20,047 nucleotides of DNA from a virus. Position numbers and translations under genes: made by a program. The stretch's first letter is position 1; the number at the start of each line of letters is the position of its first letter. The stretch lies in the IMG/VR virus record IMGVR_UViG_3300033146_005306, positions 1-20,047 of that record. One strand, 5' to 3'. Shown here piece by piece: positions 6,037 through 18,087 of this stretch. The notes beneath the pieces were generated by a model. The model saw only the letters and a list, made by a program, of their open reading frames with translations. It was not told the origin of the DNA and made no database searches.

Positions 6037-7770
6037 CTAGAACTCGTCGTCAAAGGCCCCTATGCCGATTTCCCCATAGATCCCGTCCCAAGCGCCGTGG
6101 GCTGCGTTGCCCTCGACTATATCATCTTCATCTGAGGCGGCGCGGTAGGTGAACGCGCCCTTTCTGAGCACGGTCTCTGCGATCCATAGGGCCATAACGG
6201 TGTCGTCGTGAAGCTCGCGCCCAAGGGCCCAAAGCTCTTGGATCATCACCCCCACCCGCTGCTTGTCGCTGTCGAGCCTGGAAGGGAAAACCACCTTTCC
6301 CGCTTCAAAGAGGCCGCGGAGGGATGGAACACCATCCCAGTAATCCGCCTTCTTCTTGGTGGTGAGGTGCCCTTTGATCGGAAGATCTGTCGTCTTCTGT
6401 AGCCCGATGTAGTGCAGCTCTCCGAACGCGTTTCGCTCAACTGCAACGGCATGAACGCGTCCCAGCCCCCCGAACTTCTGAAACTCAGCGAGGACCGCAC
6501 CCCTGATCCCGCTAGGACTTAGACCTCTGATCCTCTTGAGCCCCAGGAGATAGCGATCCCCGTTAGCGTCGCGCCCCCATGTAATGCCGACCGTATAATC
6601 TGAATCTTGGGAAGCAGCTTTGGCGGGGTCAGTCACAAGAGAGAAGTCCCAGCCCTGAACAATCTCGAGCCCCTTTACCCCTTCTGGGATCGAGTCGAGC
6701 GAGAGGTGAGCGCCTCGGTCCTGCGCTCGCTGGAGCCACTCCATTTTGAATGGTGCGGAGCTGTCATCCTGAACTTGGTGTTGAAACTCGCGAGCGAAGA
6801 CTAGGGGCGTGATCTCGTCGCGTTCTTCGAGGAGGTACTCAATCGGTCGGTGCTGCGGCCAGAGAACCTTAGAAGGGCCGACCACATCAACCCCAGTGAC
6901 GATCTCCTTTTGAAGCTCAGGGTCATACTCTTTGATAATCGAGTGATCTTCCGGCCACTGGATGATCGCGGGGTCTTCAATCACCCGCCAAGATGCGCGG
7001 CGGGAGAGGTGCCCATACAGATCATCGTGGTGTTTGCGCGTGCCGATAATGATGAACGTGCCTCCTGGTGAGAGCATCGGCGTAACGGTCCCGTTGAACC
7101 ATCCGCGCGTCTTAGCCCGCCCCGCGATTGAGAGCGTGGTTTTATCCGATTCGAGGTCATCACAAAGGATGAGATCGAAGTGCCCGCCCGTGATCGCCCC
7201 ACCCGACCCCACAGCCTCAATCGAGGGGTCCACGCTTTTTCTGAGCCTCTGAACATAGATCGCGGTCTGAGTCCAGCGCGCTGCGTCTTCTTTGCCGCTG
7301 GCCTTGAACGGGAGACATCCGGCCTCGGGCTCGCTCGCCCAGTCCTCCACGATGCGTGGAGACTTCAAAAGAGAGGAGATCCTCTGCAAGCGTTTCTTGC
7401 CCACCTCGGCGGACTCTGAGATCCAAAGGATCCGAATATCTCGATCCTTGCAGAGCTCGCGCAGAGCGATAGTGATCGTTAACTCTGTTTTCCCGTGGTC
7501 ACGGGGGGCTAGGAGCAAGAGCCTGTTCTTGCGCTGTCCGTCCCGCCGCGCGTTGTCGATTGTCCGCGTCGCGATACTGAGCCACCTATCCCGGTGCGCA
7601 GCTCGCCACATTCCGCAGTAGTAGGTGTCGAAGAAGGTCGGGCTTGCCGCTGCAAGGCTGCGCCGCCCTGCGGGAGTTGACACCAACTCTGCCGCAAAAG
7701 CTGTCGCGTCCTCGGGTGAATGGTTTGCCTGTGGTGCGCTCAAGGTGTGGCCTCTCGTCTGTGGTAACAT
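6037..7770 (-). CDS. Terminase large subunit (packaging ATPase-nuclease)
   Basis: A 577-residue DNA-packaging motor. The ATPase domain has Walker A APRDHGKT at 88-95, Walker B FDLILCDD at about 198-205, and a coupling motif around GGTFIIIGTRKHHDD (236-250). The C-terminal RNase H-like nuclease shows the expected acidic residues: D375 in QGWDFSLVTD, E445 in AVERNAFG and D522/D523 in HDDTVMALW. It cuts concatemeric DNA and pumps it through the portal. The ATG at 7770 has no Shine-Dalgarno sequence, whereas a TTG at 7743 (nine codons in) has AGAGG 7 nt upstream, so the true start may be 7743. The call is firm. Confidence 0.92.
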   Translation of the reverse strand: MLPQTRGHTLSAPQANHSPEDATAFAAELVSTPAGRRSLAAASPTFFDTYYCGMWRAAHRDRWLSIATRTIDNARRDGQRKNRLLLLAPRDHGKTELTITIALRELCKDRDIRILWISESAEVGKKRLQRISSLLKSPRIVEDWASEPEAGCLPFKASGKEDAARWTQTAIYVQRLRKSVDPSIEAVGSGGAITGGHFDLILCDDLESDKTTLSIAGRAKTRGWFNGTVTPMLSPGGTFIIIGTRKHHDDLYGHLSRRASWRVIEDPAIIQWPEDHSIIKEYDPELQKEIVTGVDVVGPSKVLWPQHRPIEYLLEERDEITPLVFAREFQHQVQDDSSAPFKMEWLQRAQDRGAHLSLDSIPEGVKGLEIVQGWDFSLVTDPAKAASQDSDYTVGITWGRDANGDRYLLGLKRIRGLSPSGIRGAVLAEFQKFGGLGRVHAVAVERNAFGELHYIGLQKTTDLPIKGHLTTKKKADYWDGVPSLRGLFEAGKVVFPSRLDSDKQRVGVMIQELWALGRELHDDTVMALWIAETVLRKGAFTYRAASDEDDIVEGNAAHGAWDGIYGEIGIGAFDDEF

Positions 7771-7816: not shown

Positions 7817-8191
7817 ATGAACCTAACCAGCGCCAAAAGCAGTATTACCCGCGCGATCAAGCGGGCGATGAGCTCAACAGAGATCGACGTTAACCCCATG
7901 ACGATCTTAGGTGAGAAGGTCAAGGTTGAGATCCACCCACCCAAGAAGGGCAAGGAAGAGGCCAGGGTCTACATCGACTGCGCCGCACGAGGGGTGCGCG
8001 CCCTCGCCCACGCAGACTTTGAATCGGCCTCTGAGGCTTCGGCTGCGCTCGTCGCGGAGTTTGAGGGGGATGAGGTGAAGGCGAGCAAGGCCAGCGAGGC
8101 GCTGGGGGTGAAGCGGGAAGAGGCGCGCGTGAGGCGCGCGAAGCGCCTAGCCGTCAAGCGTGGGGAAGGATCCCAGGCTATAGCTCTCTAA
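7817..8191 (+). CDS. Hypothetical basic protein, lone plus-strand gene
   Basis: A 124-residue protein starting at ATG 7817 (MNLTSAKSSITRAIKRAM) with AAGG 5 nt upstream. The frame is open further upstream to 7625, but that part is antisense to the terminase and has no ribosome site. The protein is Ala/Lys/Glu-rich: a basic N-terminus, a short beta-looking middle (VKVEIHPPKK...ARVYIDCAARG) and a C-terminal helix rich in Lys/Arg (EARVRRAKRLAVKRG). I do not recognise the family. It diverges from the terminase, and its last 45 bp overlap the 3' end of the recombinase-like gene on the other strand. Confidence 0.6.
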   Translation: MNLTSAKSSITRAIKRAMSSTEIDVNPMTILGEKVKVEIHPPKKGKEEARVYIDCAARGVRALAHADFESASEASAALVAEFEGDEVKASKASEALGVKREEARVRRAKRLAVKRGEGSQAIAL

Positions 8192-9193
8192 CAAGTCCTG
8201 GTGAGTGTAATAGTTTTTGACGATGTGGCTTAATCCTCGAGCCGTCCAAGCGCGGCCCTTCCTGTTGACTGAGCCGCTCACCCGCTCCAACACATCAGCC
8301 CACTTGAGCCCCTCTGCGCGGAGGTCTATCACGCGAAGCGTAAACTCAAGCTCGTCGGGCTTTGGGATAAGGCGCCCTCCGAGCCGCCTGAACCCCCAAG
8401 GCCCCATCTTGGGAATCGCGCGCCCGACCTCCCCGCCTGCGAGCTTGGCGCGCTCGTATTTGGTGGAGAGATCCGAAGAGTGAGCCCAGGGCTTTCCGTT
8501 CCTGCGCTTGAGCCCCTTCTCATTGAGCAGCCTTAAAATATCAACCCAGCGCGCGCCCGCGTCGCGCTCCTTTACGATGAGCGCGAGGGTCGCCGCTTCC
8601 TGCTCATCAACGACGGCGGCGGAACCGTCCCACCTCCACCCGTAGGGAAGGCGACCGCTCCTATTCCCCAGGAGCGGTACTGCCGCGCGGGCTGCCACAG
8701 AGACCTCGGCAACCGCGCTGAGGGCAAGCCCCGCTGCGTTGTCTTTATGGATGAAGAGGCCCCGTACGCCGGGAGCTTTAGCCCCTACGAGGCGACGCCC
8801 CCCTGTCTCATAGTTGGAGATGTAGACGCCCCCCAGGGACCGAGAAATCTCCGCCGCGGCCTCATCCACGGTCACGAAGAGATCTGAGAGTGCCCGCATG
8901 ACCAGCGGAGAGCCCGCGCGGAGGGCCTTGAGCACGCAGGCGCGCCCCTCCCTTGCCCCTGGGGCGGTCTTTATGTCGTCGAGATAGAGCGCGAAGGGTG
9001 GTGCGAAGTGGAGGTTATCCTCTGCATAGATACAGAGGGCCTCTTGGGCGTCCTCGAAGATGCTCGCTCGCTCACCTTTTGCGCGGAGCAGGTAGAGCAC
9101 GGGCGGGGGCGGGGGCGGGGGCGCTGGCTTGCGAGGCTTGGGCTTTCGGTCAGGGAATGGTGGAGGGGGGAGGCTGTCGGGTTGGGTTGCCAT
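8147..9193 (-). CDS. Degenerate serine-recombinase-like protein with two recombinase-type domains
   Basis: A 348-residue protein; ATG with GAAGG 8 nt upstream. After a Pro-rich tail (1-31), residues 32-128 follow the outline of a serine resolvase catalytic domain (Y-L-L-R, then LYLDDIKTAPGAREG like the D-x-SG-RPG stretch, then GGVYISNYE). The catalytic Ser position appears to be Lys (K39 in LLRAK), and the D-R-L-x-R stretch reads SDLFVT, so strand cleavage is not expected. Residues 181-248 match the helical Recombinase domain that follows the catalytic domain in large serine recombinases (LPYGWRWDG...VVDEQEA...LNEKGLKRRNGKPW); residues 264-330 look like a second copy (GPWGFRRLGG...WADVLERV...GRAWTARG). 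A DNA-binding, non-catalytic role is likely; what it binds is unknown. Confidence 0.65.
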   Translation of the reverse strand: MATQPDSLPPPPFPDRKPKPRKPAPPPPPPPVLYLLRAKGERASIFEDAQEALCIYAEDNLHFAPPFALYLDDIKTAPGAREGRACVLKALRAGSPLVMRALSDLFVTVDEAAAEISRSLGGVYISNYETGGRRLVGAKAPGVRGLFIHKDNAAGLALSAVAEVSVAARAAVPLLGNRSGRLPYGWRWDGSAAVVDEQEAATLALIVKERDAGARWVDILRLLNEKGLKRRNGKPWAHSSDLSTKYERAKLAGGEVGRAIPKMGPWGFRRLGGRLIPKPDELEFTLRVIDLRAEGLKWADVLERVSGSVNRKGRAWTARGLSHIVKNYYTHQDLLESYSLGSFPTLDG

Positions 9194-10554: not shown

Positions 10555-11649
10555 TCAAGCGCCATCATCGCGGGCGGCTGCGGCTGCGGTCTTTTCAGCC
10601 TCATTGTCCTCTTGAACGAGATCAGCCTCTAGAGTGAGCTGTGCGCGTGAGGCTTTAACGTCCTCCTGTGCTTTGTCAGAGAAAACCGAGGCGAGTTGAT
10701 CCCCGATGGCCGCGAGGCGATCAACGTCGAGCCCGAACTTCTCCGCCGCCTCAAGCGGGGTTATCCGCGGAGCCGAGGATCCTGATACCTGCGTGTTGAC
10801 GATCTGCGTGTTTGAGATCGTGAACTGAGACGCTTCAGCTTTCAGATCAACGCCGAGTAGTGCAGCTTGGCGAGCCCCCGCCTTAACGATCATTCCCATG
10901 AACGCTGTGCGCTCTTTCGGGTCTAAGAACTGCGACCCATCATAGGCCGCGTCAAGCTCTGCGAAAGCGAGCCGCTTCACGCGCTCCATGTCATCATAAA
11001 GAGCCCGCCGCGCCCCGTGTCGGTGGTCTTCATCCCATATCTCAGCATCGCGCCGTTTTGCCCTCCTGAGGAAATCTTGGGCGCGCTGCACATGAACATC
11101 AGGATCAGCGAGGATCTTCTGGAAAAACGGAGCCTTTATGTCAGCGTCTACCTGGAGAACCAAGAACGCGGTGTCAATGAGGGGCTCAAGCTCCTCAAGG
11201 CTCAGGCGCGGGTGTCCGACCTCAGCCCTGATCTCCGCAATCGAAGGGGGGCGCTTGATCGAATCGAAGGGCTTTCTGAGGAAATCTGTTCGAGGATCCA
11301 TTAGCGCCCGCCGCTCCTCGGCTGAAAGGATGTACCGTACCCCCCCTCGAGGACCGGGAGATCTCACCTGCGTTTCATTATTATGCAAAACACCTGAACG
11401 CTCGGCCAGCCCATCGCCGCCAATGTGCTTCAGATTGTCTTGTTTGCCCGTAGGCTGCACACACGGCTTACCCTCAACAGGCTCAACAGAGACCCCCTCA
11501 GACTGCGAGACGGGGGGCTCGATGTCCGCGCTGGAGTGCTTCCTGGGCTGCTTCTGCGCCTTGTCCCGCTTGGCTTGGGCCTTGGGCTTGGTGGCCTTCG
11601 CGCTGGCCTTCTTTGGCTTAGGGGCTGATTTGGCGCGTGGCTTTGTCAT
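10555..11649 (-). CDS. DNA-associated phage protein, possible terminase small subunit
   Basis: A 364-residue protein, ATG start. The first 40 residues are Lys/Ala/Pro-rich like a DNA-binding tail, followed by a low-complexity stretch to about 95. The body is helical, with a motif near residues 265-290 (KERTAFMGMIVKAGARQAALLGVD) that resembles the helical segment of some phage small terminases, and a C-terminal acidic/Ala tail. A small terminase recognises the packaging site and recruits the large subunit. Here the large-subunit gene is about 3 kb further on, so this is a tentative reading. Otherwise it is an unknown nucleic-acid-binding protein. Its start overlaps a possible small gene (ATGA). 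Confidence 0.6.
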   Translation of the reverse strand: MTKPRAKSAPKPKKASAKATKPKAQAKRDKAQKQPRKHSSADIEPPVSQSEGVSVEPVEGKPCVQPTGKQDNLKHIGGDGLAERSGVLHNNETQVRSPGPRGGVRYILSAEERRALMDPRTDFLRKPFDSIKRPPSIAEIRAEVGHPRLSLEELEPLIDTAFLVLQVDADIKAPFFQKILADPDVHVQRAQDFLRRAKRRDAEIWDEDHRHGARRALYDDMERVKRLAFAELDAAYDGSQFLDPKERTAFMGMIVKAGARQAALLGVDLKAEASQFTISNTQIVNTQVSGSSAPRITPLEAAEKFGLDVDRLAAIGDQLASVFSDKAQEDVKASRAQLTLEADLVQEDNEAEKTAAAAARDDGA

Positions 11650-11762
11650 CTCTGAGAGGCTCCTGTGTTGGTGTGAGGCGGGGTGTAGACGGCGGTAAGC
11701 TCAGCGTAGACGCAGATATGGGCTGAGCGGCCCTTGGGGCTGAGCGGACCTTGGGGCCGCAC
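11646..11762 (-). CDS. Possible small gene, 38 residues
   Basis: An open frame from GTG at 11762 to a TGA that overlaps the next ATG by 4 bp (ATGA), the coupling used elsewhere in this window. It contains AHICVYAELTAVYTPPH, and most codons end in G or C as in its neighbours. Against it: no clear ribosome site and a 17-bp tandem duplication at its start. Weak support. Confidence 0.28.
   Translation of the reverse strand: MRPQGPLSPKGRSAHICVYAELTAVYTPPHTNTGASQR
11720..11753. repeat. 17-bp tandem duplication
   Basis: GGGCTGAGCGGCCCTTG is followed directly by the same 17 bases with one change (C to A at position 12), between the SspB-like gene and the 364-residue gene. Probably a slippage product; its period is not a multiple of 3. 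Confidence 0.6.
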
Positions 11763-11764
11763 TC

Positions 11765-12055
11765 TCAGGCTAGAGACCTCATCTCTACGATCGACGCGAG
11801 AGGGATAACGCAGGTGTAGGAGAAAGAGCCGAAGGTGAGTACCGCTTTAACCTTGAGCAACTCAACGCGAATCTCGCCTGTAAAGCGCCTGCTCAGATCG
11901 AGCCTCACAAGCGGGCTGTTCATCAGATGGCCGGGGATGTCAACACCGCGCGCGAGGGTGTCAACGGTCACGGCCACGGGGCCATCGTCGAGCATGGCAA
12001 GCAGATCAGCGCGGGTCTTGCGCTCTTTGGTGTTTGGCATTCTAAGGAAGGTCAT
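11765..12055 (-). CDS. SspB-like protein (putative ClpXP adaptor)
   Basis: A 96-residue protein; ATG with GAGGTGAG 5 nt upstream, overlapping the previous stop (ATGA). The sequence follows the SspB fold in its shorter form: a helix (TRADLLAMLDDG), then PVAVTVDTLARGVDIPGHL, VRLDLSRRF, then the strand pair VKAVLTFGSFSYTCVIPLASIV. Bacterial SspB binds ssrA-tagged substrates and hands them to ClpXP. The acidic C-terminal tail ending in the ClpX-binding XB motif of classical SspB is absent here: the protein stops at EMRSLA. It might therefore bind tags without delivering them, or work with another protein. The assignment rests on remembered family patterns and should be tested. It is the last gene of a coiled-coil, membrane, SspB-like operon. 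Confidence 0.55.
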   Translation of the reverse strand: MTFLRMPNTKERKTRADLLAMLDDGPVAVTVDTLARGVDIPGHLMNSPLVRLDLSRRFTGEIRVELLKVKAVLTFGSFSYTCVIPLASIVEMRSLA

Positions 12056-12441
12056 CTGCGCTCACCTCGCGGCGGAGAAAATCGCGCTCCTAGGGGGGTT
12101 ATCTCACATTCTGCGGTGTTCTCAGTCACAACGCAGACTCGGCGGGTGATCTGCTTACCACCTCCAACTAAGGGGATCTCTCTGTAAACGTCGAAGGCAT
12201 AGACACCTGGGCCTCGGCGCTCGCGTCCTGAGATCAATGTGTCTGCGTTGGGGTTATGGGGCGGGCGATCAATGGCCTTGAGGATGAGGGCGCGTTGGGC
12301 GTCGGTGGGGGCGTCGAGGGCGATAAGGGCCGCTCCGCCAAGCTGGCCGAGCGCCACCATCAGCACAACTAAGGCGCTCAGGATGAAGATGAACGCGGTG
12401 AGCGTGCTGAGGCCCCTGAACCAATCAGAGAAGGCCCTCAT
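12052..12441 (-). CDS. Single-pass membrane protein, unknown
   Basis: A 129-residue protein. A hydrophobic segment of about 28 residues near the N-terminus (TAFIFILSALVVLMVALG and on to about residue 42) is a likely membrane anchor or uncleaved signal; the charged first ten residues suggest an N-in orientation. The rest is soluble, with two Cys (VCVVTENTAECEI) that could pair if exported. Both ends overlap neighbours by 4 bp, linking it to the coiled-coil and SspB-like genes. No family recognised. Confidence 0.65.
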   Translation of the reverse strand: MRAFSDWFRGLSTLTAFIFILSALVVLMVALGQLGGAALIALDAPTDAQRALILKAIDRPPHNPNADTLISGRERRGPGVYAFDVYREIPLVGGGKQITRRVCVVTENTAECEITPLGARFSPPRGERR

Positions 12442-13709
12442 GTGGTGCTCTCATCGGTGGGGGGCGCGGTCTCGGCGGCGGGGACGGGGGCCTCGGAGCC
12501 CTCAACGGGGCGGGCGTCCTCTTGGTGGAGGCCAAGATCCAGGGTGGGCGCGGGGGCGCCCGTGACCTCCGCGAGCCCGATATCCTCGACAGGGCCAGAG
12601 AAGGACGCCTCGATCACGAGATCCTCGCGGCCCGCGCTCGCCATGAGGTCTACATATTGCTCGCGGTGCTCAGGGCTAAGGGCGCTCACCTGGATCGCGA
12701 TGGCTTGCCGAGCTGCTTCAGCTTTGGCGGAGAACTGATCGATCTCCAGCGTAGATGCGGCAAGGGCCTCTAGGTCGGAGGAGGGTTCAACATGGAAGGC
12801 CCCCGTGTTGAGCGTCAAGAGCCGATCAAAGCGGCCTGAGAAGCCAGAGAAGAACACCGTGATCTTCCGATTCAGCTTCTCATTGAGCTTCTGCGCGGCC
12901 TCTGGGTCGGTCTTGCTGTCGTTGATACGTGCAAGGGCCTTGATGATCGCGCGGACCTCGCGAGACGCCCAACAGATCAGCGCGCTACGGTGGATCTCCC
13001 CGCGCAGCTTGGCCTTGAGCCCCGCGAGCCCGGCCTTGAGCCCCAACACCTCACGATTAAGGGCCGCGTTCTCCATTTGAAGGGGGAGCACCTCAGCTTT
13101 TAGCTCGGCGTTCTCCGCGCTCATGCGGCTCATTGACTCTGCGGCGAGTTGCCCGCGGAGCTCAAAGGACTCGGCGACCGCGGCGGTGATCTGCTCAAGG
13201 TCGGGGAGGAGATCGAGATCCTCAACAGTGGGGGCCGGTGGGGCGTCCTTCAAATCGGAGGGCTTGAGGGTGCGGAGGTGCGCTGCGTGGGCGTCTTGGG
13301 CGGCCTTGAGGATCACCCCCTCGACAGCGGAGAGGCGGGCCTTAATGGCGTCGCGCTCAGCGAGGGCTTCGGCTACCTGCTCAGAGGGGGCGGCTTCAAG
13401 CTCGGAGATGCGCGCTTCAAGCTGTGATATCTCGTATTTGAGCACATGCGACTCGTTAAGGAGTCGCTCCGCCGCGTGAAAAGAGGCGCGCTCAGAGTCC
13501 GTGATGCGCGATAAGTCCGCCGCCTGCTTTGAGTTGATCCCCTCCAGCATAAAGAGCTTGTCATTCACCGCGGAGAGGGCCAGGCGCGCCGCGTCGAGTT
13601 GCGCGAGGGCCTCGGCGTGGGGGACATTCCTCACCTTGAGCAAGCGGGTCTTGAGCGCGTGATTTTGGCGTTTGAGGTCGCGGACGATCTGCGGGGTCTT
13701 GGCGTGCAT
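12438..13709 (-). CDS. Long coiled-coil protein, unknown
   Basis: A 423-residue protein, ATG start with GAGAGG 9 nt upstream. Residues 5-135 and 180-235 are heptad-rich coiled coil (for example LKYEISQLEARISELEAA and LPLQMENAALNREVLGLK). A middle block (about 238-310) contains the only aromatic-rich part (VFFSGFSGRFDRLL), and the C-terminal 50 residues are acidic and Pro-rich. It resembles structural or scaffolding coiled coils but no named family. It is first in a three-gene overlapping operon and follows a good promoter. The position is far from the tail genes, so a tape-measure role is unlikely. Confidence 0.65.
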   Translation of the reverse strand: MHAKTPQIVRDLKRQNHALKTRLLKVRNVPHAEALAQLDAARLALSAVNDKLFMLEGINSKQAADLSRITDSERASFHAAERLLNESHVLKYEISQLEARISELEAAPSEQVAEALAERDAIKARLSAVEGVILKAAQDAHAAHLRTLKPSDLKDAPPAPTVEDLDLLPDLEQITAAVAESFELRGQLAAESMSRMSAENAELKAEVLPLQMENAALNREVLGLKAGLAGLKAKLRGEIHRSALICWASREVRAIIKALARINDSKTDPEAAQKLNEKLNRKITVFFSGFSGRFDRLLTLNTGAFHVEPSSDLEALAASTLEIDQFSAKAEAARQAIAIQVSALSPEHREQYVDLMASAGREDLVIEASFSGPVEDIGLAEVTGAPAPTLDLGLHQEDARPVEGSEAPVPAAETAPPTDESTT

Positions 13710-13872: not shown

Positions 13873-13900
13873 GGTTAGGATGAGGGGGCGCGTCCTAACC
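13873..13900. repeat. 8-bp inverted repeat at the end of the 40-residue gene
   Basis: GGTTAGGA (13873-13880) and TCCTAACC (13893-13900) form a perfect stem with a 12-nt loop overlapping the stop codon of the small membrane gene. There is no T-run, so it may protect the 3' end of the mRNA or be a factor-dependent terminator. Confidence 0.45.
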
Positions 13901-14017
13901 GAGATGGTCTGCGCCGTCACTGTCTTTCGGATCTCTGAACACAAACCAGAGAGTGATCGCAAAGAGGGTCAGGCGGATAACGAGCCAGAGCGGGCCGTCC
14001 GTGTCGAAGAGGCTCAT
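13895..14017 (-). CDS. Very small membrane protein (40 residues)
   Basis: The ATG overlaps the nuclease gene stop (ATGA) and has AAGGGG 7 nt upstream, so the start is well supported despite the size. The protein is MSLFDTDGP, then one hydrophobic helix (LWLVIRLTLFAITLWFVF), then an acidic tail (RDPKDSDGADHLG). It is a single-pass inner-membrane peptide. It could be a lysis or regulatory peptide or a membrane-targeted inhibitor; nothing decides between these. A short stem-loop covers its stop. Confidence 0.6.
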   Translation of the reverse strand: MSLFDTDGPLWLVIRLTLFAITLWFVFRDPKDSDGADHLG

Positions 14018-14604
14018 AAGAGGGCCCCTTGATGGCTCTTAGGTGGGCGAGGGCCGCGCACCTTGCGCCACCTCTCACCGTCCTTGACGCGTACAGGGAA
14101 ACCCAAGGCCCTGAGCTTCTCTAGGGCGTCCTCGGAGCCGTACCCCATGAGACAGACCCAGCCCTCGCTAAGAAGCGCGTCTAAGTAGACTTTTTGGTGG
14201 GGCTCGGCCCCGCTCCACATCCCCGCGCGGTCTGTCTTCGGCTTCTTTGAGGGCACTTTAAACTCAATCGCGATCCCGCGGGGCGTCTTCAAGAGAAGCC
14301 CGTCCTCATCAGCCGGGAAGCTGATAGAGGGGAAGGGGCGCCCTGTACGCTTGGCCTCGCGCGCCTCCCAAAACACATCAGAGAGAGGAGATGGCGGGCG
14401 GGTGAAGATCATCAGATCAGGGCAGCCCTTCTCTAAGCCCAGGCGGACAGCTCCCGCGGCGGAGGCCCCAGAGAGGGGAAGCCCGTTCGATTGAGCGTTG
14501 AAGAGAATGTGCAGGCGTCGCAGCTCGCGGACCACGAATGCCTGCTCTACGTCCTCGAGTTTGCGGCGCTTCGGCCCCTTGCGTGGCCCGGTGCGTGGTT
14601 TCAT
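14014..14604 (-). CDS. VRR-NUC domain nuclease
   Basis: A 196-residue protein, ATG with AAAGGA 9 nt upstream. Motifs of the VRR-NUC branch of the PD-(D/E)xK nucleases are in order: a helix with LEDVEQAFVVRELRRL near residues 16-31, LEKGCPDLMIF (about 57-67) carrying the catalytic Asp, IAIEFKVPSKKPK (about 110-122) with the E-x-K, then EPHQKVYLDALLSEGW and the closing GSEDALEKL. An insertion of about 40 residues between the Asp and the E-x-K is longer than usual. Phage members are thought to process branched or replication DNA. It lies among replication-type genes and is coupled to the 40-residue membrane peptide. Confidence 0.8.
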   Translation of the reverse strand: MKPRTGPRKGPKRRKLEDVEQAFVVRELRRLHILFNAQSNGLPLSGASAAGAVRLGLEKGCPDLMIFTRPPSPLSDVFWEAREAKRTGRPFPSISFPADEDGLLLKTPRGIAIEFKVPSKKPKTDRAGMWSGAEPHQKVYLDALLSEGWVCLMGYGSEDALEKLRALGFPVRVKDGERWRKVRGPRPPKSHQGALL

Positions 14605-16629: not shown

Positions 16630-18087
16630 ATGGCAAACACCGGGGTTGAGCAAAAGGGCCGATTCGGGCGCCTCATGGGGGCCACCTTCCGGTCCAAGCT
16701 AGGGCGCCGAGACAAGATGGTCTTGATGGCGATTATCACGCTGGCCGGAGATGACGGCGTGTGCCGCTACGGGAAAAAAGCAATCTCCGATCTGACTGAG
16801 TACGACCGCAAAACCATAGGGCGTTCTCTTGCGGTCCTGAGACGCCTCGGGTTGATCGATGAGGTCAAGGGGGCGCAGTCCTGGTTCCCCTCGTCTAGAG
16901 TGTTAAAGGTCGCCGAAATTGAGGCGTTGAGAGCCCGAGACGTTGAGGGATACGCGGAGATCGTCGAGGAGCAGGCGGCTGCCATAAACCCAAAGCGTAA
17001 GCGCCTCACCAAAGCCGAACGTAGCGAAAGAGCCAAAGCCCGCGCGGCGGCGCGGGCAACCAAAAATAAGGCTGAGAGGGCCCTAGGTGGGGACACAGTG
17101 TCCCTAGGTGGGGACACAGTGTCCCTAGGTGGGGACACAGTGTCCCTAGGTGGGGACACAGTGTCCCTAGGTGGGGACACAGTGTCCCTACCCTGGGGAC
17201 ACAGTGTCCCTACCCTGGGTGCCGAAAACCCTAGTGCCCCTACGCACACACGCGCGCGCTCTTTTTCTGACTCTGTATCTGACTCTGTATCTGACTCTGT
17301 ATCTGACTCTGTATCTGACGAAGGCGGGGCGGCGGGCGGCTTGGGCCAGGAAGCTCTAGAGGGGCTTGTTTTCTGGGCTAAGACGCTCAAGGTGAGGAAG
17401 TCAGACCAGACCAGAAGCGCGAACCCGAGCACGACAAAGGGAGATGTCCGCCTTAGTGCTCTGCGCTGGTTTCTAGAAAACACCCCCGACCGTAGCCTCT
17501 TAAACGTGAAGCTCGGCTGCCTGGGTTGCAAAGTGAAGATCGCCCGACAGCGCGCGGACAACTTCAACCCAGGGGCGACCTATGACGAGCTCACCCGCAT
17601 TGTCGCCGACCGGGACAGCCTTGATATGCACTCGAAGCACCTACTCACCCCGTCGTCAGTAATCCCGACGCCGGGAGAACTGGAACTTGAGGATTTGGCC
17701 TCAACGCCCGAGGGCTTGGACACGTTGAGGGCTCACGCCGAGGAGTTGGCAACCCGCGCTCAGACTCGTGAGCCATATCGCCCGGCCCGCACACGAAGCC
17801 AAGGGGGAGGTCGCCAGAGCAACCGAACCGGGATCAGGGCGCAATTCACCGACGAGCAGCGACGAGGGTTCCTGTCGCTGGTCGCGAACGGATCAAAGCC
17901 TCTCGACGGAGAGATCACCGCACGCGAGGCCGCTGACCTCGGGGTTTCACGCCAAGAGATGTTGAGAGCCTATGAAGGCGGGGCAGATGCGCGGGCGCGC
18001 GTGCTGGAGGCTCGCGCGAAAACCGAGGCCGACTTAGAAGCCGAGGCCGATGAGATTTGGGGCTCTGCCGCTAAAGCCTGGCGATAA
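16630..18087 (+). CDS. Phage replication initiator (lambda O-like role) with internal origin
   Basis: A 485-residue protein with a strong AGGAGG site 7 nt before its ATG. Residues 20-90 form a winged helix of the kind in phage replication proteins (RRDKMVLMAIITLA...GKKAISDLTEYDRKTIGRSLAVLRRLGLIDEV). A basic linker follows (about 118-150), then a repeat region: five LGGDTVS units (about 152-186) and a Ser-Asp-Ser-Val repeat (about 215-232). These are the translations of DNA repeats that look like an origin. The rest (240-485) has a Cys pair (GCLGC) and helical, charged sequence and probably contacts the helicase or loader. The next gene is a DnaC-like loader, the order seen in lambda (O then P). 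Function is inferred from this architecture. Confidence 0.75.
   Translation: MANTGVEQKGRFGRLMGATFRSKLGRRDKMVLMAIITLAGDDGVCRYGKKAISDLTEYDRKTIGRSLAVLRRLGLIDEVKGAQSWFPSSRVLKVAEIEALRARDVEGYAEIVEEQAAAINPKRKRLTKAERSERAKARAAARATKNKAERALGGDTVSLGGDTVSLGGDTVSLGGDTVSLGGDTVSLPWGHSVPTLGAENPSAPTHTRARSFSDSVSDSVSDSVSDSVSDEGGAAGGLGQEALEGLVFWAKTLKVRKSDQTRSANPSTTKGDVRLSALRWFLENTPDRSLLNVKLGCLGCKVKIARQRADNFNPGATYDELTRIVADRDSLDMHSKHLLTPSSVIPTPGELELEDLASTPEGLDTLRAHAEELATRAQTREPYRPARTRSQGGGRQSNRTGIRAQFTDEQRRGFLSLVANGSKPLDGEITAREAADLGVSRQEMLRAYEGGADARARVLEARAKTEADLEAEADEIWGSAAKAWR
17081..17210 (+). repeat. Iteron array, putative replication origin
   Basis: Five exact 21-bp tandem units (17081-17185) and a sixth 22-bp variant (17186-17207). 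Each carries the core GGGGACACAGTGTCCC, palindromic around a central A (cores at 17089, 17110, 17131, 17152, 17173 and 17195). The 21-bp period keeps the initiator reading frame. Iterons inside the initiator gene match the layout of lambda ori within O. Probable binding sites of the protein encoded around them. Confidence 0.75.
17266..17319 (+). repeat. 12-bp tandem repeats, putative origin unwinding element
   Basis: TCTGACTCTGTA is repeated four times exactly (17266-17313) plus a half unit. It is locally lower in G+C than its surroundings and starts 56 bp after the last iteron core. Repeats beside iterons often mark the DNA-unwinding region of an origin. The 12-bp period encodes SDSV units and keeps the frame. 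Confidence 0.6.

Follow-up and report, generated by a model that had tools for sequence, protein, structure and literature searches.

The window, meaning the whole stretch of DNA analysed, is a 20,047-base virus record and may be a fragment. Its minus strand contains a 96-aa ORF that starts with ATG and stops with TGA, and whose open frame opens just two codons upstream of the ATG. This ORF and the features around it are as follows.

6037-7770: large terminase, downstream of the SspB gene.
10555..11649, minus strand: putative small terminase, likewise downstream of SspB; six relatives among the ORFs of related phage loci (best 8.5e-7).
11765..12055, minus strand: predicted 96-aa SspB core domain with neither a linker nor a ClpX-binding (XB) motif; evidence from profile, tree, model, fold search and tail comparison.
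12052..12441, minus strand: 129-aa protein, judged by eye to have a single membrane span at the N-terminus; ATGA overlap, directly upstream of the SspB gene.
12438..13709, minus strand: coiled-coil protein, 423 aa, first of three coupled genes; sub-threshold coiled-coil-type Pfam matches only.
13895..14017, minus strand: candidate single-span membrane peptide of 40 aa, whose frame overlaps the upstream gene at its end; coding status judged by codon-position GC.
14014..14604, minus strand: 196-aa protein, nuclease-like by eye only; in related phage loci, phmmer matches 12 ORFs, the best at 3.9e-15.

ATGA overlaps couple the coiled-coil gene, the membrane-protein gene and the SspB gene, bearing out the proposal of the initial annotation that the three are co-operonic; this shared operon is all that links the SspB protein to the other two. 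The third-position GC of the SspB gene is 0.71, and the neighbour genes are alike in this respect. No relative of the 423-aa coiled-coil protein was found in the related phage loci or in further searches. For the 129-aa membrane protein, the searches turned up neither a convincing family nor a relative in phages; the putative small terminase matched no Pfam or PHROG family. Elsewhere in the window, a Pfam Recombinase protein (8147-9193, minus strand) has an N-terminal half unlike the serine-recombinase catalytic domain, and its relative in locus L073 (4519-5265) seems to possess that domain. On the plus strand, 16630-18087 encodes a replication-initiation-like protein with internal GGDTVSL and SDSV peptide repeats.

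The initial annotation had likened the strand and helix pattern of the 96-residue protein to that of SspB, the ClpXP adaptor for ssrA-tagged proteins, and the profile, tree and model described below all uphold the resemblance. Twelve myxobacterial SspBs were found by a bacterial-genome scan with an approximate, consensus-like query, and each of the twelve matches the window protein, with E-values from 1.8e-11 to 3.2e-7 in a set of 12. Four of them were checked against Pfam, and all four are SspB, three above the cut-off and L089 just under it. An SspB profile of 50 myxobacterial rows (12 proteins and 38 loci; the loci overlap and some genes occur twice) scored the 96-aa ORF at 50.2 bits (E 1.6e-12 at Z 100,000). 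It was the profile's sole match at E<=10 when the 291 window ORFs were searched together with 2,000 shuffled versions of the 96-aa protein. Judged by its sequence, the phage ORF is a homologue of the SspB core domain, and we hold it to be nearly certain that the protein is both homologous to SspB and devoid of the tail.

Searches that started from the window protein itself gave a fainter picture. Pfam and PDB sequence searches returned no SspB, and the NCBIfam SspB model aligned colinearly but scored low, at 13.6 bits (E 0.043) for a cut-off of 162. The Pfam SspB model scores certain genuine myxobacterial SspBs below its cut-off too; when PF04386 was searched against 282 Myxococcota genomes, SspB was detected in 110 at E<=0.01, with 83 above the cut-off. 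Since the Pfam and NCBIfam cut-offs were not reached directly, we filed the protein as an SspB-core homologue and not as a full member of the PF04386 family. With the window protein alone as the query, no relative appeared at useful E-values among viral contigs, genome contigs, phages or plasmids. The relationship came to light with the myxobacterial SspBs as a bridge. An HTH_20 match (15 bits, cut-off 27) and the rows for bactofilin and HypC were taken as chance.

The window protein keeps 14 of the 20 positions that are invariant in its eight closest cell relatives. The six changes comprise K14T, N53D, S74T, G77S and A88S, which are mild, and P66L, which is not. The host-conserved MVHLDARR stretch is not preserved as such; the pan-family D, GV and P are preserved, and the N-terminal helix and the MP..ER.. 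motif, common to the close relatives, are kept.

The single-sequence model of the window protein was poor (pLDDT 44). With an alignment of 12 proteins, the model reached a pLDDT of 83.1 and a pTM of 0.70, and its secondary structure agrees with the SspB pattern. Structure prediction followed by a search against SspB had been suggested as a check, and it placed SspB entries first. The best 19 rows listed by Foldseek against the PDB were all SspB (E 1.3e-5 to 2.5e-3, TM up to 0.78), and VIA-align 2 gave a Z of 11.9 to 9.9 for the SspB entries versus 7.4 for the next row. Among the best 19 predicted viral structures listed, 4 are named stringent starvation protein B, and all 19 (129-373 aa) are longer than the window protein. 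SspB relatives were fed to the predictor as an alignment, which ties the fold match to the sequence match, so the model supports rather than independently proves that the window protein has the SspB fold.

In a tree of 73 rows and 101 columns, the window protein groups with the eight cell proteins mentioned above (support 95/80), all of which belong to one Myxococcota class (57 genomes searched, 38 with a match). It shares 37-43% identity with these relatives, which average 52% among themselves. Its branch is long, at 2.23 changes per column versus a median of 0.35, and this length suits a changed function. A search of the 282 Myxococcota genomes gave a single relative of the phage terminase (56% identity), in G233 of the same class, on a 3.6-kb contig for which misbinning is possible. 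Because the SspB relatives and the G233 terminase relative come from the same class, we infer that the phage host is probably a myxobacterium of that class. The SspB gene may have been acquired from the myxobacterial host and then reduced to the tag-binding core.

The XB tail of SspB docks on the ClpX zinc-binding domain. The initial annotation had described the window protein as ending before any such tail, and the comparison with cell proteins confirms this: the stop follows directly after the last core strand, with no linker, and there is no XB motif at either end. In all eight closest cell relatives, a C-terminal LR[IL][VI] follows the linker; since all eight are tailed, parsimony places the probable loss of the tail on the long branch of the phage protein itself. 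The 12 first-found myxobacterial proteins are 144-171 aa long versus 96 aa for the window protein, run roughly 55-80 residues beyond its end and have tails with HLR or HLK. Also missing are about ten residues with which the core ends in each of the eight closest relatives, a loss that may weaken tag binding or make the protein less stable. A hidden tail reached by frameshift or read-through was rejected, as no XB motif arises from TGA read-through or from another frame. The -1 frame at the SspB stop (11728-11775, minus strand) reads SLRVRP, which has a partial likeness to the start of an XB motif and is probably chance.

Loss of the ClpX contact, the ATGA coupling of the three genes and the long branch would all suit a core that has been repurposed as a peptide-binding module, acting with the coiled-coil and membrane proteins in a phage task outside ClpXP, such as holding a phage protein at the membrane. 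However, both partners are without known relatives or function, and the place beside the terminase genes singles out no task; we regard this explanation as unlikely, though worth keeping in mind.

The significance of a missing tail depends on how cellular SspBs end. By patterns for the XB and N-terminal motifs that were written after the tails had been inspected, 54 of 67 distinct cell SspBs have an XB-like C-terminus, 11 have an N-terminal NVV.LDF-like motif and 2 have neither; in these two, a version of the N-terminal motif is recognisable by eye. A second set of 30 cell SspBs, which overlaps the first, gave 22 with the C-terminal pattern, 4 with the N-terminal pattern and 4 with neither. 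Among the last four, L198 ends in HLKVIT, which is XB-like by eye, and L203, L207 and L209 do not have such an end. Because these four match neither pattern, the XB-type motif is not universal in cell SspBs. Thirteen cellular Myxococcota SspBs (L157, L158, L160, L161, L164-L167 and L169-L173), which form a clade with 99/99 support, lack the C-terminal XB and carry a conserved NVV[RHE][LV][DP]F-like motif close to the N-terminus, as if the docking element had shifted to the opposite end. Whether cellular SspBs from this class might be tail-less too was looked into with these 13, and all of them have the N-terminal motif (11 by pattern, 2 by eye). On contig C122 of G033 (L094, L178), fewer than 200 bases separate the SspB gene from the tmRNA gene, which is on the other strand, a proximity that fits a link of myxobacterial-type SspB to trans-translation.

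Given a clade in which the docking element may have moved, the phage protein could conceivably be an active adaptor with new clients, docked on ClpX by another part of the chain or by another protein. We consider this quite improbable, as the window protein has neither the C-terminal nor the N-terminal motif, and its N-terminus is a few residues long and bounded by a stop two codons upstream. An XB motif supplied by another window protein was rejected: the motif-like strings in four of them (p147, p129, TerL and p348) are all internal, and none is in the operon.

Other phages also encode SspB. We read ten phage SspBs in full, hand-picked as differing representatives from 79 records and, in the case of LucasX, from outside them; two Salmonella and two Acinetobacter records were left out as they looked like bacterial DNA. 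An XB-like end is kept in seven of the ten (pf16, AH06, RAY, SNUABM_54, phiKZ, Psa21 and SNUABM_DT01). Vibrio 150E35-1, Vibrio D69 and LucasX do not match the XB pattern; close to their C-termini stand NVV, NVI or DFRARRK-like strings, which may be the alphaproteobacterial kind of motif. The phiKZ protein gp232 (L135:1471-2379), which carries no annotation beyond the name PHIKZ232, is an SspB match with LTVIKGGKK at its C-terminus, and the SspB gene of Pseudomonas phage pPa_SNUABM_DT01 (L139) is one gene away from a DNA ligase. PF04386 was run against 27 of 80 records of related phages and found SspB in none of the 27, a result that carries no information, as the same model misses the window's own gene; the myxobacterial SspB profile gave nothing below E 0.38 in the ORFs of all 80 related phage loci, many of which are fragments. 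The core-only phage SspB is known here from one genome.

Five IMG/VR loci of three kinds encode SspBs nearer the myxobacterial type: those of L141-L143 are identical, L174 has two tandem genes, and L175 has two domains in one chain. None of the five distinct SspB domains in these loci has an XB motif. Between L141 and the second domain of L175, dN is 0.24 and dS 0.66; from these rates, the XB-less SspBs of the group are judged to be under purifying selection. In these large phages, the SspB coding region (L174:4859-5709, L175:966-1817, L141:6013-6441) lies directly behind an NAD-dependent DNA ligase gene.

The constraint on this separate phage group bears on whether the window protein is a decaying, functionless relic of a captured gene. 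Its truncated end and long branch would suit such a relic, but its frame is open, its third-position GC resembles that of its neighbours, its translation is coupled and its core residues are preserved; we therefore consider decay very improbable. The two-domain chain of L175 lends some credit to a dominant-negative dimer, as do the N-terminal helix and MP..ER.. motif that the window protein retains. The phage core would pair with host SspB into one-tailed mixed dimers, which would deliver poorly regardless of tag binding. However, at 37-43% identity the sequences may be too divergent to pair, and this explanation seems to us decidedly unlikely.

In the available text of two reports, delivery requires the SspB core and XB to be coupled (PMC8138137), and SspB127, which is without the ClpX-binding sequence, did not enhance the degradation of lambda O by ClpXP (PMC7804408). 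By analogy, we tentatively favour, at slightly less than an even chance, a phage core that acts as a non-delivering competitor. The bare core would hold tags without handing the cargo to ClpX, and the occupied degrons would slow the ClpXP turnover of host-SspB clients during infection. Peptide binding, dimerisation and an effect on ClpXP are all predicted properties of the window protein; that it could divert or block ClpXP, as first proposed, follows from the known biochemistry. The accompanying suggestion that it protects a repressor found no support, as none was identified in the window. The proposed search for phage proteins with ssrA-like C-termini was also negative: host-type tags are ANDNVELALAA and kin, and none of the 25 listed window ORFs ends in this way. 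For this reason, host products are likelier clients than phage proteins.

If delivery is indeed blocked, the phage core would be an anti-proteolysis device that targets the adaptor and not the protease, and the reason for a phage-borne SspB would become testable by simple in vitro degradation assays. Tail-less and split SspB serve as laboratory tools, and a natural core-only phage SspB would be nature's counterpart of them. At least two phage conversions of a captured myxobacterial-type SspB to an XB-less tag binder, one a bare core and the other duplicated or fused cores, might constitute an anti-adaptor class that shields selected clients or the products of trans-translation from ClpXP in infected cells, a generalisation that we consider possible but doubtful. 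Phage SspBs as such have been published (pf16, PMC5587285; RAY, PMC10299810). The core-only form is new as far as the accessible parts of these sources and the open-licence literature go, and no report of a natural core-only SspB was found in the latter.

Compared with cellular SspB (PF04386; the E. coli, H. influenzae, Caulobacter and Myxococcota forms), the window protein shares the core by profile, tree and modelled fold, but is without the linker, the XB motif and the last core residues. The SspB of Pseudomonas phage pf16 (gp18, 128 aa) is likewise phage-borne; its authors, reporting in 2017, modelled competition with host SspB on RseA and proposed a competitive role (PMC5587285). As far as the accessible text goes, however, pf16 SspB differs from the window protein in keeping LRVVK at its end, in its gammaproteobacterial lineage and in a linker that is only partly deleted. 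The nucleus-forming and other jumbo phages also carry an SspB domain (RAY gp039, described in the available part of PMC10299810; phiKZ gp232; Psa21; AH06), but with LTVVK, LTVIK, LTLIQ or LSIVK near the end. The SspBs of L141-L143, L174 and L175 resemble the window protein as myxobacterial-type relatives without XB, whereas they keep a C-terminal extension, have a ligase neighbour and form a separate tree branch; that of L174 is duplicated and that of L175 fused, while the window protein is a single bare core. SPO1 Gp53 is a phage protein that modulates ClpCP at the adaptor level, and thus shares the level at which a host Clp protease is targeted; unlike the window protein, it binds ClpC, and the text available states no relation to SspB (PMC6873191). 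On that partial text, Gp53 is the nearest functional analogue, directed at another Clp protease.
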